A stretch of DNA of 38,901 bases, taken from NCBI GenBank assembly GCA_030765505.1, contig JAVCCL010000011.1, positions 1 to 38,901 on the forward strand, in the 5' to 3' direction. Position numbers and translations under genes: made by a program. Under the pieces are notes generated by a model. The model was not told where the DNA came from. It searched no databases and worked only from the letters and a program-made list of their open reading frames with translations. Position 1 is the first letter of the stretch; every line of letters begins with the position of its first letter. Shown piece by piece: positions 10,977 through 17,930 of this stretch. Source of the stretch: Candidatus Kaelpia imicola (GTDB lineage: Bacteria > Omnitrophota > Gorgyraeia > Kaelpiales > Kaelpiaceae).

Positions 10977-12164
10977 ATGGAGAAAGAGAGTCTCACCTTA
11001 TTTAGCAAGAGTTATTCCTTAAGGAAGTTGCCCTATCCACATATAGTAGTATCCAGCAAGAAGGAGATTCATGGCTGGTGGGGCGGGAGAAGAGAGTGCA
11101 CGGGTGAGAGGTTTCTTCTCAACCCCTACTCCGGTTGCTCTGTAGGCTGCTTCTATTGCTATGCCAGATCTTTTCCGGGATGGTTTCAACTATTCAGAAA
11201 ACGCGGCATAGTTGTTGTAGCGGAAGAGTTCCATAAGGCAGTGGCCAGGCAATTGGATTCGATAGATATTGCTGCCTGTGGTTACCTGAGCCCTGTTACA
11301 GATCCTTTTCAGCCTCTTAATCGGGAATTTAGATTAGCAGAGAAGATAATAGTTGAATTTAGCAAAAGAAACATCCCAATTGAGTTTATAACAAAATGCA
11401 GGGTGCCTGATGAAGTTTTAAATATACTTAAAGGTAATGAACACAATTTCGGCCAGATCTCTATCCTGACTCCGGATGAAAAGATCAGCAGAATCCTGGC
11501 TCCTCGAGGTGCTGGTGTTGATATTCTTTTTGAAAATATAGCTAGAATCTCAGCCAAAGGTATATTTTCAGTTATAAGAATAGATCCGATTCTACCTTTT
11601 ATAACAGATAGCAGAGAAGATTTAGCCAATCTTATAAGAAAGGCAAAGAAGAGCGGAGCTAAGCATGTAATATCAAGCGTCTTGGATATTCCACAAGTCA
11701 TAAGAGAAGAAATTTTGGAGTTTATAAAAAGAAATTTCGGTTTTGATATTTATATCAAATATAAAGGTCTTTATACTGAAAAGATAAGCGGTTATTTAAA
11801 CGCAGATCTAAACTACAGAATTAAGATTTTTGATTTTTTAAAGAGAGAGGTTTTAAAAAACGGAATGAGTTTCGCGCTTTGTATGGAGCATAGGATTTTA
11901 AAAGATGGAAATTTAAAAGGCCTAAATAAGGAGTATATGAGTTCAGATAACTGTGAAGGTATCAATATTCCTCTCTATAGGAGAAGAGGAGATAAGTTTT
12001 ATCCTGCAGCCGATTGTCCAGGTAACTGTTTGAATTGCGAGGATCCGATTTGCGGTGTAGATGATCTGGCAATGGGTGAGCCCGGCTCTAAAAAAGATTG
12101 GAAACTTAAAGATTACAAAAGATGGTCAGCGATGATAAAATTAAAAAGTTATGAAGATAAATAA
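10977..12164 (+). CDS. SPL-like radical SAM protein (COG1533 type)
   Basis: The 395-residue enzyme carries the radical SAM cluster motif C54-x3-C58-x2-C61 in NPYSGCSVGCFYCYAR, the context typical of spore-photoproduct-lyase-related proteins (SplB/COG1533). YLSPVTDPFQPL near 103-114, EFITKC near 136 and the SILTPDEKISRILAPR region near 162 also fit that family. The C-terminal part adds C302, C326, C347, C351, C354 and C359, the last four as C-x3-C-x2-C-x4-C, which could hold a second iron-sulfur cluster. The substrate is unknown: relatives include DNA lesion lyases and uncharacterised enzymes. The last codons overlap the macro-Nudix gene by 14 bases, so the two are probably made together. There is no clear SD at the ATG. 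Confidence 0.8.
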   Translation: MEKESLTLFSKSYSLRKLPYPHIVVSSKKEIHGWWGGRRECTGERFLLNPYSGCSVGCFYCYARSFPGWFQLFRKRGIVVVAEEFHKAVARQLDSIDIAACGYLSPVTDPFQPLNREFRLAEKIIVEFSKRNIPIEFITKCRVPDEVLNILKGNEHNFGQISILTPDEKISRILAPRGAGVDILFENIARISAKGIFSVIRIDPILPFITDSREDLANLIRKAKKSGAKHVISSVLDIPQVIREEILEFIKRNFGFDIYIKYKGLYTEKISGYLNADLNYRIKIFDFLKREVLKNGMSFALCMEHRILKDGNLKGLNKEYMSSDNCEGINIPLYRRRGDKFYPAADCPGNCLNCEDPICGVDDLAMGEPGSKKDWKLKDYKRWSAMIKLKSYEDK

Positions 12165-13086
12165 TGTAGAGATTGAATTTAGGAATGAAGATATCACTAC
12201 TTTAAAAGTCGATGCTATTATAAATCCTGCGAATACAGAGTTAATTATGGGTGGAGGGTTGGCCCTTGCTATCAAAAGAAGGGCCGGGGGTGAGATAGAG
12301 AGAGAGGTTCTTAGACTGGCCCCTATTGTCCTGGGTGACTCTGTGATAACATCCGGAGGCCGGTTAAAAGCAGATTGGATAATACATTCAGCAACCATGA
12401 AAATGGATTTTAAAACAGATCAAGATATTATAGGAAGATCTTTGGACAGCGCTTTGAACCTTGCAAAAGAGAGAAGTCTTAAGAGTATTGCAGTGCCTGC
12501 TTTAGGCTGCGGTACAGGAAGATTCCCGATTAAGAAGGCTGCCAAGATCATGGTTGACGAAGTTTTGAGCCATATCCAAAATGGCAGTTCACTTAAGAGG
12601 ATTGTTTTTTCGTTTAAAACTGAGCCGGCATATTTAGAGTTTAAAGAGAGCTTCTTATCTTATTATAGTTATCAATCAAGAAAGCTGGCTCAGATTCCAA
12701 TACCTACAGTAGATGCTATTATTTTTACAGAGGAGAATAAAGTCCTTCTCATAGAGAGGGAGAATCCTCCTTACGGCCTTGCTCTTCCCGGAGGATTCCT
12801 GGAGTATGGGGAGTCTCTTGAAGATTGTATCAGGCGGGAAGTCGAAGAGGAGACTTCCTTAAGAGTGATAAAATTAAAACAGTTTCACACCTATTCAGCT
12901 CCAGGCAGGGATCCCAGGTTTCATACCGTAACTACAGTCTTTATAGTAGAGGTAAAAGGTTTACCCAAAGCAGGCAGTGATGCTAAAGCTATAAAGCAGT
13001 TTTTGTTAGATAAACTGCCTTCCAAGGAAGATTTTGCTTTCGATCATTGGCAGATATTACAGGATTGGCTTAAAACCCGGCAATAA
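12151..13086 (+). CDS. Macro domain-Nudix hydrolase fusion protein
   Basis: Residues 1 to about 175 form a macro domain: GDIT-like NEDITTLKVDAIINPAN at 12-28, the GGGLALAI loop at 34-41, VPALGCGTGRFP at 115-126. Such domains bind ADP-ribose and often remove it from proteins or from O-acetyl-ADP-ribose. Residues about 185-311 form a Nudix hydrolase with the box starting at G215: E221, then R229-E230 and E233/E234. The terminal Gly of the box is Ser236. Nudix relatives cleave ADP-ribose, other nucleoside diphosphates or oxidised nucleotides. One chain could therefore release and then cleave ADP-ribose, but both substrates are inferred. The ATG lies inside the radical SAM gene (14-base overlap). 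Confidence 0.88.
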   Translation: MKINNVEIEFRNEDITTLKVDAIINPANTELIMGGGLALAIKRRAGGEIEREVLRLAPIVLGDSVITSGGRLKADWIIHSATMKMDFKTDQDIIGRSLDSALNLAKERSLKSIAVPALGCGTGRFPIKKAAKIMVDEVLSHIQNGSSLKRIVFSFKTEPAYLEFKESFLSYYSYQSRKLAQIPIPTVDAIIFTEENKVLLIERENPPYGLALPGGFLEYGESLEDCIRREVEEETSLRVIKLKQFHTYSAPGRDPRFHTVTTVFIVEVKGLPKAGSDAKAIKQFLLDKLPSKEDFAFDHWQILQDWLKTRQ

Positions 13087-13439: not shown

Positions 13440-13467
13440 TTGACACCTCTATGTCTTATGTTATATT
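13440..13467 (+). promoter_or_regulatory. Promoter of the hydrogenase-maturation operon
   Basis: TTGACA (13440-13445), 16 bases, TATATT (13462-13467), extended -10 TG at 13459-13460. The expected start is near 13474, giving an untranslated leader of about 245 bases before the first gene at 13720. Confidence 0.75.
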
Positions 13468-13473
13468 TGCCCC

Positions 13474-13719
13474 ATTAGTTGTATCAGATAAGAGCAATAA
13501 TGAAGGTAAATAAACAGTGTATAACAAGACTTACCTGTTAGAAAGGTTTTAGAAAAACCTCTTAAAACAGGAAGTTTTTTTAAAAGACAGTTGCTGAGAA
13601 TATAGCTTAGTCTCTGTTTTTTCTGAGGTTGAGGATCTAGTCTAAGGCCAAGGATAATAACAGCGATGTTTTATCCCCGGTCTTATTTTAGACCGGTTAT
13701 TTTTTATAAGGAGGCTAAG
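13474..13719 (+). promoter_or_regulatory. Structured leader / candidate riboswitch-type attenuator
   Basis: This non-coding stretch holds several exact pairings: AGGTAA 13504-13509 with TTACCT 13531-13536; AGGTTTT 13544-13550 with AAAACCT 13554-13560; AAAAC 13564-13568 with GTTTT 13574-13578; a long hairpin 13582-13590 with 13614-13622 (one G-U) enclosing CTGAG 13594-13598/CTTAG 13606-13610; and GGATAA 13652-13657 with TTATCC 13671-13676, capped by AACA-GCGA-TGTT. A terminator follows at 13677-13705. Competing pairings exist: TAAGGCC 13643-13649 with GGTCTTA 13679-13685 would break the terminator; CTTAG 13606-13610 with CTAAG 13642-13646 would block that; AACCTC 13556-13561 with GAGGTT 13625-13630 would rearrange the middle. 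I match it to no known class. Structure is by eye. Confidence 0.6.
13677..13705 (+). terminator. Intrinsic terminator inside the hyd leader
   Basis: The stem is CCGGTC (13677-13682) with GACCGG (13691-13696), loop TTATTTTA, followed by TTATTTTTT. It sits after the promoter and directly before the AAGGAGG ribosome site (13708-13714), so it can only act as an attenuator of the downstream operon. Confidence 0.75.
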
Positions 13720-13977
13720 ATGGATAGAAGAGTTGGATTTATAGGGATTATCTTAGAGGATAGAGAGACGCAGGCTCAACTTGTCAATCAGGTTCTTTCT
13801 AAGTTTGCTGAAACTATTGTTGGGCGTATAGGGCTGCCTTACAAAGAGAAGAGATGTTCTGTTATAACTCTTATTGTAGACGCAACTACTGATGAGCTTG
13901 GCGCTATGACCGGAAAGCTTGGCAAGATAGAGGGGGTCTCTGTTAAGTCCGCTTTAAGCAAAGAAAAGAATAGATGA
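13720..13977 (+). CDS. TM1266-family iron-only hydrogenase system regulator
   Basis: The 85-residue protein begins MDRRVGFIGIILEDRE and matches the small ACT/NikR-like-fold TM1266 family found next to [FeFe]-hydrogenase maturation genes. It is thought to regulate that system, though its ligand and mechanism are not established. The start at 13720 is chosen because AAGGAGG ends five bases upstream. An in-frame ATG at 13666 would put translation through the terminator stem and is very unlikely. The stop overlaps the hydF ATG. Placement as the first gene after an attenuator-like leader supports a regulatory role. Confidence 0.85.
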   Translation: MDRRVGFIGIILEDRETQAQLVNQVLSKFAETIVGRIGLPYKEKRCSVITLIVDATTDELGAMTGKLGKIEGVSVKSALSKEKNR

Positions 13978-15236
13978 AGACTACACCAAAATCTTTGAGG
14001 CTCCAGATCGGAATATTCGGCCGTATGAATGTTGGTAAATCCAGTTTCCTTAACATGGTTAGCGGCCAGGATGTCTCTATAACATCCGATCTTCCCGGAA
14101 CAACGACTGATGTTGTTGAGAAGACTATGGAGCTTCTCCCTGTTGGCCCGGTCGTATTCCTGGATACAGCAGGCTTAGATGATAGCTCTTCTTTAGGCGA
14201 GAAGAGAGTAAAGAAGACAGAGAAGATATTTAATCGTTCAGAGATAATAGTTCTATTGGTAGAGGCTGATATTTGGAGTGATTATGAAGAGAGAATAATC
14301 AAAGAGGCTAAGAAGAGAGATAGACCTGTTATTATAATTGTGAATAAAACAGATATTAAATTTCCATGTGATGAGTTTTTGAATTTAATAACTACCAAGT
14401 GCCAAGAATATCAGCTTATTATAAGTACAGATTTAAAAAACCGCGATAGATATGTCAATCCATTTAAGGAAAAGATATTAGAGTTATCCCCGGAAGATTT
14501 TCGTAATCCCCCGCCTATAATAAGTGATTTAATGCCTAAAGGCGGTATTGCAGTCTTAATAATTCCCATTGATTTAGAAGCTCCCAAAGGAAGGATAATT
14601 CTTCCCCAAGTTCAAACAATAAGAGATGCTTTAGATGGAGATCAGGCGGCTTTGATTGTTAAAGAGAGTGAGTACAAGCAAGCTTTAAATAGTCTTAAGA
14701 GAAAGCCGGATATAGTTGTCTCTGACTCTCAGGTTGTAGATTTTATGATTGAGAATACTCCGCCGGATGTTAATGCTACGACTTTTTCAACTCTCTTTGC
14801 GCGTTATAAGGGAGATATAGCGGAGGAGATTAAAGGTGTTTTTATGGTAGATGAGATAGGACCGGGAGATAAAGTGCTGATAGCTGAAGCATGCTCTCAC
14901 CATCCGATAGAAGATGATATTGGAAGAGTTAAAATACCGCGTTGGTTAAAAGATTATCTGGGCTTTGATCTTAAGTGGGATAGTACCGCCGGCAGAGACT
15001 ATCCTGATGATCTCTCTGACTATAAACTTATTATCCATTGCGGGGGTTGTATGATAACGCGGTATGAGATGCTCAGTCGGATTCAGATGGCAATTGAAAA
15101 AGGAGTAGCCATTACTAATTACGGTATTGTCATATCTTATTTAAAAGGTGTGCTGGAGCGGATTCTTTCGCCTATACCTGAGGCAGCGGAGTTATTTAGA
15201 AAATATAGAGAGGAGGTTAGAGATGAAAGTATATAG
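13974..15236 (+). CDS. hydF: [FeFe]-hydrogenase maturation GTPase HydF
   Basis: HydF is the scaffold on which the diiron subcluster of the H-cluster is assembled before transfer to HydA. The 420-residue protein has an N-terminal GTPase (G1 GRMNVGKSS at 16-24, PGTTTD at 41-46, DTAGLDD at 64-70, NKTD at 124-127). A dimerisation domain follows, then the C-terminal cluster-binding domain with C307-x-H309 in EACSHHP and C356-x2-C359 in HCGGCM. That is the CxH-x46-CxxC pattern of the family. It overlaps the TM1266 gene by four bases and hydG by 14, indicating translational coupling. Confidence 0.96.
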   Translation: MKTTPKSLRLQIGIFGRMNVGKSSFLNMVSGQDVSITSDLPGTTTDVVEKTMELLPVGPVVFLDTAGLDDSSSLGEKRVKKTEKIFNRSEIIVLLVEADIWSDYEERIIKEAKKRDRPVIIIVNKTDIKFPCDEFLNLITTKCQEYQLIISTDLKNRDRYVNPFKEKILELSPEDFRNPPPIISDLMPKGGIAVLIIPIDLEAPKGRIILPQVQTIRDALDGDQAALIVKESEYKQALNSLKRKPDIVVSDSQVVDFMIENTPPDVNATTFSTLFARYKGDIAEEIKGVFMVDEIGPGDKVLIAEACSHHPIEDDIGRVKIPRWLKDYLGFDLKWDSTAGRDYPDDLSDYKLIIHCGGCMITRYEMLSRIQMAIEKGVAITNYGIVISYLKGVLERILSPIPEAAELFRKYREEVRDESI

Positions 15237-16719
15237 TGATGATACTAAGAACTGGATAGATAATAGAATTAAGAGAGATGAGGTAACTAAGTTTTTAAAA
15301 AATAATAAAGATTTCATAGACGATGAACTTATTGAGAAGAAGATAGTTAAAAATAAGAATGCTGACAAAAAACTCATAAAGGATATAATCGCAAAATCTC
15401 TTGAGGTTAAGACTCTATCTTTAGATGAAACTGCCTATCTTTTAAATGTAGAGGATGAGGATACTTGGGCCATGATGGAGGATGCTGCTTTAAAAGTCAA
15501 GAAGAGAGTCTATGATAATAGAATCGTTACTTTTGCACCGCTCTATATGTCTAACTTATGTGTAAATGACTGTCTCTACTGCGGTTTTCGTAAATCCAAT
15601 AACTCTGCTAGACGCAGAGTTTTAACTAAAGAAGAGGTAATTAAAGAGACGGAGGTCTTGGCGGGTGAGATTGGCCATAAGAGGCTGATAGTTGTCTATG
15701 GAGAGCATCCTAAGACCGACGTAGACTACATGGAAGAGACAATCTCTGCAATTTATAGTGTTAAGGTTAGGACTAAACATGGGTATGGATCTATACGGCG
15801 TGTCAATGTCAATGCAGCATCTCTTTCAATCTCTGATTTAGAGAGGCTTCATGATGTTGGTATCGGGACCTATCAGGTCTTTCAGGAGAGTTACCATCAT
15901 CCTACTTATAGTAAGGTTCACCCTGAGGGAACTATTAAGGGTGATTACTCCTGGAGATTATATTGTTTACATCGGGCGATGGAGGCAGGGGTTGATGATG
16001 TTGGTCTGGGAGTATTATTCGGACTCTATGATTGGAAATTTGAGGTTTTGGGTCTCCTCTCTCACACTTTAGATCTGGAGAGTAAATTCGGCATAGGAGC
16101 TCATACGATATCATTTCCCCGGCTTGAGCCGGCCAAAGATACTCCTTTTACTGAGAGTTCAAACTATAAGGTCTCAGACCGGGATTTTAAGAAGCTGATC
16201 ACTATTATTCGCCTTGCCGTGCCTTATGCAGGAATGATTATAACGGCCCGGGAGAGTGCCGAGATCAGACGCGATGCTTTAAGACTCGGCATTACTCAGA
16301 CCGATGCCTCAACCCGTATAGGTATAGGCGCTTATAGCGATTGCTACAGGAAGCAGGAAGGCAATAGACAGCAGTTCTATCTTGGAGATACCCGGTCTTT
16401 AGATGAGGTGATAAGAGAGTTTGCCCGGATGGGATATATCACATCTTTCTGTACCGCCGGTTACCGCTGCGGACGGACAGGAAAAAACATTATGCAGCTC
16501 TTGAGGTCAGGCCGGGAAGGAAAGTTCTGTAAACTTAATGCGGTTTTGACTTTCAGGGAATGGCTGGATGATTTTGCCTCTGCTGAAACAAAAAAAGCGG
16601 CTCTATCGATTATTAAAAAAGAGATAAAAGAGGTTAAAATAGAGATGCCTAAAGTCTATGATGATTTTATAAGTTATTATGAAAAAATAAGAGATGGCCA
16701 AAGAGACCTCTATTTCTAG
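15223..16719 (+). CDS. hydG: [FeFe]-hydrogenase H-cluster radical SAM maturase HydG
   Basis: HydG cleaves tyrosine to make the CO and CN- ligands of the H-cluster. The 498-residue protein has the radical SAM motif C113-x3-C117-x2-C120 (CVNDCLYC). The start at 15223 is set by AGGAGG at 15211-15216; earlier in-frame starts lie inside hydF. The C-terminal motif, which in characterised HydG is C-x2-C-x22-C and holds the auxiliary cluster, reads CTAGYRC here. C410 and C436 keep the usual 25-residue spacing, the middle cysteine is Gly413, and another cysteine sits at 416. It may be a lineage variant or use C416 instead. It overlaps the orphan gene by 26 bases. Confidence 0.94.
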   Translation: MKVYSDDTKNWIDNRIKRDEVTKFLKNNKDFIDDELIEKKIVKNKNADKKLIKDIIAKSLEVKTLSLDETAYLLNVEDEDTWAMMEDAALKVKKRVYDNRIVTFAPLYMSNLCVNDCLYCGFRKSNNSARRRVLTKEEVIKETEVLAGEIGHKRLIVVYGEHPKTDVDYMEETISAIYSVKVRTKHGYGSIRRVNVNAASLSISDLERLHDVGIGTYQVFQESYHHPTYSKVHPEGTIKGDYSWRLYCLHRAMEAGVDDVGLGVLFGLYDWKFEVLGLLSHTLDLESKFGIGAHTISFPRLEPAKDTPFTESSNYKVSDRDFKKLITIIRLAVPYAGMIITARESAEIRRDALRLGITQTDASTRIGIGAYSDCYRKQEGNRQQFYLGDTRSLDEVIREFARMGYITSFCTAGYRCGRTGKNIMQLLRSGREGKFCKLNAVLTFREWLDDFASAETKKAALSIIKKEIKEVKIEMPKVYDDFISYYEKIRDGQRDLYF

Positions 16720-16951
16720 ATTTAAAGAACTCAGCGTTGAATTTAAAAGAGAGTACCCTTCTTCTATTCAGCTTGTTTCGATATCAGAGTCCCGCTGGTC
16801 TTATCTACCAGGAGAGGAGCTGGGTATCTCATCAAATATGATAAGAGTAAAATTAAAGAATAATCTGGGTTTGATTGTATGTTTAAGAAAGGAATCAGAG
16901 CTCTCAGCCGATTTTATAAAAGATTTTTTCAAAAGTATCTATGAAGAATAG
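16694..16951 (+). CDS. Unknown 85-residue protein between hydG and hydE
   Basis: I do not recognise this protein. It is soluble and charged (MAKETSISRFKELSVEFKRE), with a middle segment ESRWSYLPGEELGISSNMIRVKLKN, a short hydrophobic strand GLIVCLR and an acidic helical end (FIKDFFKSIYEE). It has one cysteine and no known motif. It overlaps hydG by 26 bases and hydE by 11, so it is almost certainly translated with both maturases. The overlap pattern argues against chance. A role in maturation or in protecting or delivering an intermediate is inference from position only. Confidence 0.7.
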   Translation: MAKETSISRFKELSVEFKREYPSSIQLVSISESRWSYLPGEELGISSNMIRVKLKNNLGLIVCLRKESELSADFIKDFFKSIYEE

Positions 16952-17930
16952 ATTGAGTAAAAATGAAATCAAAAAGTTTCTTAAAGGCGAAGATGAGAAC
17001 CATCTCCTGGAGACTGCATCCAATATTCGGAAGGAATTTTTTAAAAAGAAGGTTCTAATAAGAGCTATTATCGCGTTTTCAAATTATTGCTTGAGAGATT
17101 GTCTCTACTGCGGTTTAAGGATAAGCAATAAAAAGTTAAGGCGCTACAGAATGAGAAAAGATGAGATTGTCGGTGTTGCCAGGGGAATTATTGAAAAAGG
17201 TATTAAGACTATCGTGCTTCAATCGGGAGATGATCTTTATTATTCTAGAGATAATCTGGTTAATTTAATAGTAAGTATAAAAAGGTTCTCTCCTTCTCTT
17301 GCTCTGACTCTTTCGATAGGCGAGAGGCCGTTGGATGACTATAAGGCTTTCTATGATGCCGGAGCAGATAGATATCTCATTAAGCATGAGACAGCCAATG
17401 AGAGTCTGTATAATAAACTCCATCCGAATCAGAGTTTTAAAGAGAGGGTTGAGATAATAGAGTTTTTAAGAAAAATAGGTTATCAGGTTGGCCTGGGCAA
17501 TATAATCGGTCTTCCCGGCCAGAGTTTAAAAGATTTGGCAGCCGATATAATGTTTTATCAGGATTTTCAGCCCGATATGATAGGTCTGGGACCTTTCATA
17601 TCCGCAGTTGATACCCCGCTCTCTGCTCAGCCTTCTCCGGATATGAAGCTTGTTCTCAGGTCATATGCTTTAGCGCGAGTTGTAACAGTGGATTCTCATA
17701 TACCTTTAACCACTGCAGCTATGACTAAAGGTGAAAATGATTTTATGAGAGAGTCTCTTAAAGTGAGCACCAATGTTATCATGGTTGATTTTACACCCAA
17801 AGAGTATAGTCTCAGTTATAAAATATATGATAATAGGTCTATCTCTTCAATTAGAGAAATAGATTATTTGATCAAAAAGCTGGGGTTTACTCCTTCTTAT
17901 GTCAAAGGGGATTCTTTGAAGAGATTTTAA
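16941..17930 (+). CDS. hydE: [FeFe]-hydrogenase H-cluster radical SAM maturase HydE
   Basis: HydE makes, with HydG and HydF, the diiron subcluster; it acts on the iron-cysteine-CO-CN product of HydG. The 329 residues contain the radical SAM motif C50-x3-C54-x2-C57 (NYCLRDCLYCGLR) and family blocks IVLQSGDD (about 92-99), IKHETANESLY (about 146-156), GNIIGLPGQ (about 182-190) and GPFISAVDTPL (about 215-225). There is no C-terminal cysteine cluster; the second cluster of Thermotoga HydE is not essential, so this is not a defect. It is the last gene of the operon, followed by a T-rich terminator-like sequence. Confidence 0.94.
   Translation: MKNRLSKNEIKKFLKGEDENHLLETASNIRKEFFKKKVLIRAIIAFSNYCLRDCLYCGLRISNKKLRRYRMRKDEIVGVARGIIEKGIKTIVLQSGDDLYYSRDNLVNLIVSIKRFSPSLALTLSIGERPLDDYKAFYDAGADRYLIKHETANESLYNKLHPNQSFKERVEIIEFLRKIGYQVGLGNIIGLPGQSLKDLAADIMFYQDFQPDMIGLGPFISAVDTPLSAQPSPDMKLVLRSYALARVVTVDSHIPLTTAAMTKGENDFMRESLKVSTNVIMVDFTPKEYSLSYKIYDNRSISSIREIDYLIKKLGFTPSYVKGDSLKRF

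Follow-up and report, generated by a model that had tools for sequence, protein, structure and literature searches.

The genes for assembling the H-cluster of [FeFe]-hydrogenase in Candidatus Kaelpia imicola (Omnitrophota) stand behind a long non-coding leader, which raises the question of whether this RNA is a switch and, if so, what it responds to. For the window, the whole stretch of 38,901 nucleotides that was analysed (contig JAVCCL010000011.1), a sequence-only reading had proposed a new riboswitch-type attenuator of hydrogenase maturation, filling the entire interval between the promoter and the first gene.

The leader and the genes behind it

The promoter, the roughly 245 non-coding bases, the terminator and the AAGGAGG described in that reading are all exactly in place. 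The features of the locus are as follows.

13440-13467, + strand: sigma-70-type promoter, TTGACA-16-TATATT (11/12 match, TG before the −10)
13474-13613, + strand: genus-specific 5' extension of the leader, with hairpins (from sequence, folding and comparison with the sister genome)
13614-13663, + strand: outer extension of P1, CTGTT (13614-13618) with AACAG (13659-13663), kept in the sister genome G001
13622-13654, + strand: conserved aptamer-like RNA core (models R1-R3, 25.7 bits with R3; covariation)
13643-13649, + strand: TAAGGCC, 3' strand of P2/P3, candidate antiterminator strand in the window's genus (pairs with GGTCTTA)
13677-13707, + strand: intrinsic terminator, 7-bp stem (13677-13683/13690-13696) plus T tract, with CCGGTCT...AGACCGG at 13677-13696
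13679-13685, + strand: GGTCTTA, antiterminator partner within the 5' half of the terminator (from sequence; GGCCTTA in G001)
13708-13714, + strand: Shine-Dalgarno sequence AAGGAGG (from sequence)
13720-13977, + strand: TM1266-family protein, putative regulator of the iron-only hydrogenase system (TIGR03959 / PF21699; PDB relative 2NZC)
13974-15236, + strand: HydF, H-cluster maturation GTPase (TIGR03918, 511 bits)
15223-16719, + strand: HydG, radical-SAM tyrosine lyase (TIGR03955, 461 bits)
16694-16951, + strand: small unannotated ORF after hydG, with RWSYLxGE (from sequence)
16941-17930, + strand: HydE, radical-SAM maturase (TIGR03956, 286 bits)

Profile matches give the order TM1266-hydF-hydG-small ORF-hydE (13720-17930); the [FeFe]-hydrogenase large subunit is encoded on a different contig of this genome. 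The small ORF has no Pfam or NCBIfam match. Its motif RWSYLxGE is shared with a small ORF that follows hydG in Atribacterota (locus L127, +1517 to +1849 after the core), with which it pairs by BLASTP at E 1e-4, and a new hydG-linked protein is possible. At 12151-13086, the window also encodes a macro (ADP-ribose-binding) domain and a Nudix hydrolase domain fused in one reading frame. No HydF match turned up when viral contigs were scanned.

Folding of the window leader surpasses that of 200 of 200 dinucleotide shuffles (z −3.36), and the promoter element TTATGTTATATTT is kept in the sister genome. Direct DNA similarity across 59 relatives returned the sister genome's leader as the sole match, and homologous leaders were therefore gathered through the first gene: TM1266 loci were drawn from 246 genomes of the window's class, with G167 added, and their upstream DNA was read.

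The conserved core: structure, covariation and distribution

All 32 of the 32 class loci with enough upstream sequence carry the same element, which consists of CCUGCGGUAAGGA, a variable stem and UCUGAAGCCAAGGGG, followed by an intrinsic terminator. Its core of about 33 nt (about 33-45 nt across the family) comprises three short helices and two conserved internal loops, with the consensus CCUGMGGURAGGA...UCURAARCCAAGGG. In the window, the core reads UCU GA GGUU GA GGAU CUA GUCU AA GGCC AA GGA, with P1 (13622-13624/13652-13654; 3 pairs), P2 (13627-13630/13646-13649; 3-4 pairs in the general layout) and P3 (13633-13636/13640-13643) separated by 2x2 loops, each GA/AA. An unconstrained minimum-energy fold of this region yields the same structure. 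The outer extension of P1 is maintained in the sister genome through two G-U changes (UUGUU/AAUAG). The complete switch in Atribacterota measures about 110 nt, with a core of about 45 nt.

The conserved core is much smaller than the interval proposed, and only 13622-13654 is kept beyond the genus. Roughly the first 140 nt of the leader are confined to the genus; this 5' extension is missing from many homologous leaders, several of which have cores that begin 8-9 nt after TATAAT.

Covariation was assessed on a MAFFT alignment of 78 sequences, made blind to structure and with the window's genus left out. Paired cells amount to 87.9%, as against 77.9% in shuffles, double changes occur in 8 of the 10 pairs, and the covariation score is 0.421, compared with 0.234 when shuffled (0/500) and at most 0.184 when slid. 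The most variable pair of P3 is the fourth (AU, GC, CG, UA), while P2 is found as GGU/ACC, GGC/GCC, GGA/UCC and AAGG/CCUU; counts from a model-fitted alignment agree with these structure-free results. Shuffle counts inflate significance among related sequences; more weight rests on the slide control and on the range of phyla. The check suggested with the original proposal, for conserved structure and covariation in homologous leaders, thus proved positive, and one criterion for a riboswitch, a conserved covarying RNA core in the 5' leaders of pathway genes, is met.

Model R3 left out the window and its sister genome, so that their genus was excluded. It scores window positions 13612-13664 at 25.7 bits, higher than any other site in the 1.46-Mb genome (E 0.005, against 1.5 for the runner-up), with E-values that are rough on account of short calibrations. 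Searched phylum-wide, R3 led to 13 further loci outside the model, nearly all outside the class; at 10 of the 13, TM1266 follows at a distance of 60-113 nt with a terminator present in every case, and all 10 come from families outside the window's class, whereas the remaining three were set aside as background.

Altogether, about 94 distinct loci carry the core before TM1266, hydG or aspA-hydF, in Omnitrophota (several families, some outside the window's class), Atribacterota, one Desulfobacterales MAG and one Planctomycetota MAG; nearly all the genomes are MAGs from uncultured organisms. Model R1, run on 384 genomes, gave about one strong match per genome. At 28 bits or more there were 50 distinct loci, of which 48 immediately precede maturation genes and two stop at contig edges; 27 of these loci had served in the training set of R1. 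An exact consensus pattern, scanned over 84,980 species (257 Gb), returned 21 matches, every one before maturation genes and 14 of them new loci. The first gene was TM1266 in Omnitrophota and the Planctomycetota MAG, hydG in Atribacterota and the Desulfobacterales MAG, and aspA-hydF in one Omnitrophota MAG. Strong matches were present in 13 of 50 Atribacterota genomes, and four weaker ones there (28-30 bits) all precede TM1266. Elsewhere the motif is rare, with one real genome in 241 (the Desulfobacterales class searched) and one in 199 Planctomycetota; Thermotogota and Clostridia gave no match in the exact pattern scan, the only test applied to Thermotogota and Bacillota. Some genomes hold more than one copy (L128 and L154 in G394; L089 and L099 in G366), a feature also of metabolite regulons.

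Several individual loci deserve mention. At a second hydG locus in a Desulfobacterales genome (L160 in G385), a strongly diverged core with P2 AAGG/CCUU scores only 19.5 bits, so the family reaches below the detection limit of the models. In L074 and L040, from one family, core and terminator lie about 300 nt 5' of TM1266, with an extra promoter-like TTGACA near the gene. The maturation operons regulated at L083 and L128 contain aspartate ammonia-lyase-like genes (named by eye), which fits with the study of ammonia-lyases for a role in making the dithiomethylamine ligand (PMC11736057) and agrees with a supply of ammonia for the azadithiolate bridge. Covariance-model matches of ~20-27 bits outside hydrogenase loci (e.g. 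L092, within a kinase gene) were dismissed as background, as were the higher-scoring L171 (31.8 bits, within a coding region) and L200 (31.1 bits), and also L204 and L206.

The core matched no Rfam 15 family, in keeping with the earlier reading, which recognised no known class. Against the 4227 families, the window and 20 homologous loci gave nothing above gathering thresholds except tRNAs in the window, and the strongest leaders gave nothing beyond sub-threshold noise in permissive mode; scores of this kind for PyrR, the L10 leader, NsiR1 and similar families were rejected. The T-box leader (RF00230) matched at neither the gathering nor the permissive threshold. Searches of the open literature, with most subscription papers and preprints outside the scope, returned no riboswitch or RNA motif connected with [FeFe]-hydrogenase genes, and the word hydrogenase is absent from the large motif surveys and reviews examined.

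Core, terminator and antiterminator

An intrinsic terminator lies 10-60 nt 3' of the core in nearly every leader. Pairing of the core 5' strand with its own terminator averages −15.8 kcal/mol over 74 leaders, compared with −13.2 kcal/mol for permuted partners (0/5000), and in 44 of the 74 the complementarity exceeds dinucleotide shuffles by more than 2 sd. For a further 17 leaders, the observed complementarity was reached by 239 of 20000 permutations. Examples in which the complementary strands have changed together are CCUGCGGUGAGG with CCUCACCGCAGG (L127) and GCCUAAAGAC with GUCUUUAGGC (L021), and the partner of the core strand overlaps terminator stem bases in all 54 leaders with a scored terminator. 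This complementarity of the 5' strand to its own terminator suggests that the folded core favours termination and that the unfolded core can form an antiterminator. Full-length folding prefers core plus terminator in 50 of the 54 leaders, implying that read-through must be kinetic or assisted. Computation on sequence has established that the core is conserved and covarying, that it is associated with these genes, that terminators accompany it and that core and terminator are complementary.

In the window, no complementarity between the core 5' strand and the terminator was detected (z +0.9). The antiterminator proposed there, TAAGGCC (13643-13649) with GGTCTTA (13679-13685), is exact, and the close relative G001 keeps it as TAAGGCC with GGCCTTA; in this genus the pairing stands on two species only. 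Family-wide, 3'-strand pairing is above permuted partners and hardly above shuffles. The proposed pairing appears to fit the window's genus, but most family members use the core 5' strand. Two further alternatives advanced in the sequence-only reading gained less. CTAAG/CTTAG is exact in the window but is not kept in the sister genome, where CTTAG has become TTTAA. AACCTC (13556-13561), inside the 5' extension, can pair exactly with GAGGTT of the core (13625-13630), but both are identical in the sister genome, so their conservation is uninformative on pairing. A further criterion for a riboswitch, that the core fold exclude an alternative pairing that controls the terminator, is met computationally, in the window via the 3' strand only.

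In the mechanism that we propose, the compact core (P1-loop-P2-loop-P3) would fold in the nascent leader. If stable, it would let the downstream intrinsic terminator form and the operon would be off; if unstable, one of its strands would pair with the terminator loop and upper stem, allowing RNA polymerase to read through. The antiterminator strand would be the 5' strand in most members and, apparently, the 3' strand in the window's genus. The trigger is most likely a small ligand on the conserved internal loops, which would make this an OFF (feedback) switch, and the sensed molecule would most plausibly be an intermediate, product or precursor of H-cluster synthesis.

On balance, we think it probable that these leaders constitute a new cis-acting RNA family, a riboswitch candidate that attenuates H-cluster maturation genes and is OFF-type and likely ligand-triggered. 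Which way the switch works, that a ligand binds directly and what that ligand is are inferred, without binding data. The lack of an Rfam match, the covarying structure and the family-wide leader-terminator switch together uphold the description as a riboswitch-type attenuator of hydrogenase maturation; the attenuator is supported, whereas ligand sensing has not been demonstrated and TM1266 as effector is not excluded.

What may act on the core, and known systems

Every regulated target is TM1266 or an H-cluster assembly gene, and hydA is not among them, which suggests that the pathway feeds back through one of its intermediates, products or precursors. The specific proposal that the core senses an H-cluster intermediate (e.g. 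the Fe-CO-CN-cysteine product of HydG) or another pathway-specific small molecule is tentative, and we regard it as unlikely in its own right. Given the small size of the core (about 33-45 nt), a protein effector is also possible: a protein, most likely TM1266, may bind the core in the manner of PyrR and enforce termination, providing autoregulation together with control of hydG in trans. TM1266 is the first gene in most core-bearing Omnitrophota operons, is encoded in 15 of 17 Atribacterota motif genomes and, among motif genomes tested, in 16 of 18; it carries the name of a putative regulator and weakly resembles ACT domains. This co-occurrence is, however, expected, since TM1266 and the motif both mark [FeFe]-hydrogenase genomes, and no RNA-binding family match was found for the 85-residue protein. 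In Atribacterota, moreover, the core precedes hydG while TM1266 lies elsewhere without a core, eight genomes encode TM1266 but show no detectable motif, and two others carry the motif but lack TM1266 (completeness unknown). Control by such a protein remains conceivable, if not what we expect. The sole solved relative of TM1266, 2NZC, was deposited as a hypothetical protein. At four Atribacterota loci (L172, L174, L175, L177), TM1266 directly follows an FGGY-type sugar-kinase-like gene, away from other hyd genes.

Two explanations dispense with an effector of the core. The element could be a constitutive 5' structure or the terminator of an upstream operon, without sensing; in many Omnitrophota the leader separates hydA from the maturation genes, so that its terminator also ends the hydA operon. 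A simple terminator needs neither conserved internal loops nor complementarity kept with each leader's own sequence, and the element is also found before hydG with its own promoter, which makes this explanation improbable. Ribosome stalling on a leader peptide, responding to charged Tyr- or Cys-tRNA, could draw on a 13-codon ATG ORF in the window (13500-13541) with two Cys codons. This ORF is missing in the sister genome, conservation sits in the RNA core rather than in a peptide, and the consensus −10 (TATAAT) ends 8-9 nt 5' of the core in L037, L069, L081, L082, L099, L127 and L130, where transcription should start at the core and leave no room for a reading frame. A conserved short ORF, the criterion for such an attenuator, is lacking, and it was rejected as scarcely credible.

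The core family provides a concrete, testable RNA in phyla with almost no genetics, and joins the uncharacterised TM1266 protein and the small hydG-linked protein in one regulon. A pathway-specific switch would reveal what cells monitor as the H-cluster is built, and would supply a natural sensor for a hard-to-measure intermediate; a riboswitch for an H-cluster intermediate, if true, would mean RNA-level feedback on [FeFe]-hydrogenase maturation in several phyla.

By kind, the element belongs with the riboswitch-like attenuators; the family itself is new. With the PyrR binding site RNA (RF00515), it shares a leader terminator/antiterminator before a small regulator gene, but the window leader scores 18-20 bits where the gathering cut-off is 54, no pyrimidine genes are involved and the core sequence is another. 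The Moco RNA motif (PMC2408646) is likewise an orphan riboswitch candidate, associated with genes for a complex metal cofactor and a ligand that is hard to isolate. It targets molybdenum/tungsten cofactor genes, in contrast to the hydrogenase core, which has no Rfam match. The Moco motif also differs in sequence and is the larger RNA. Transcription-terminating OFF riboswitches such as SAM-I and preQ1-I differ from the hydrogenase RNA in that the latter has no Rfam 15 match and no identified ligand, and in that [FeFe]-hydrogenase maturation is unreported as a riboswitch target in the literature searched. They share with it an aptamer-like core in the leader, conserved internal loops, alternative antiterminator and terminator structures, a core strand that doubles as the antiterminator strand, and control of a biosynthetic pathway.
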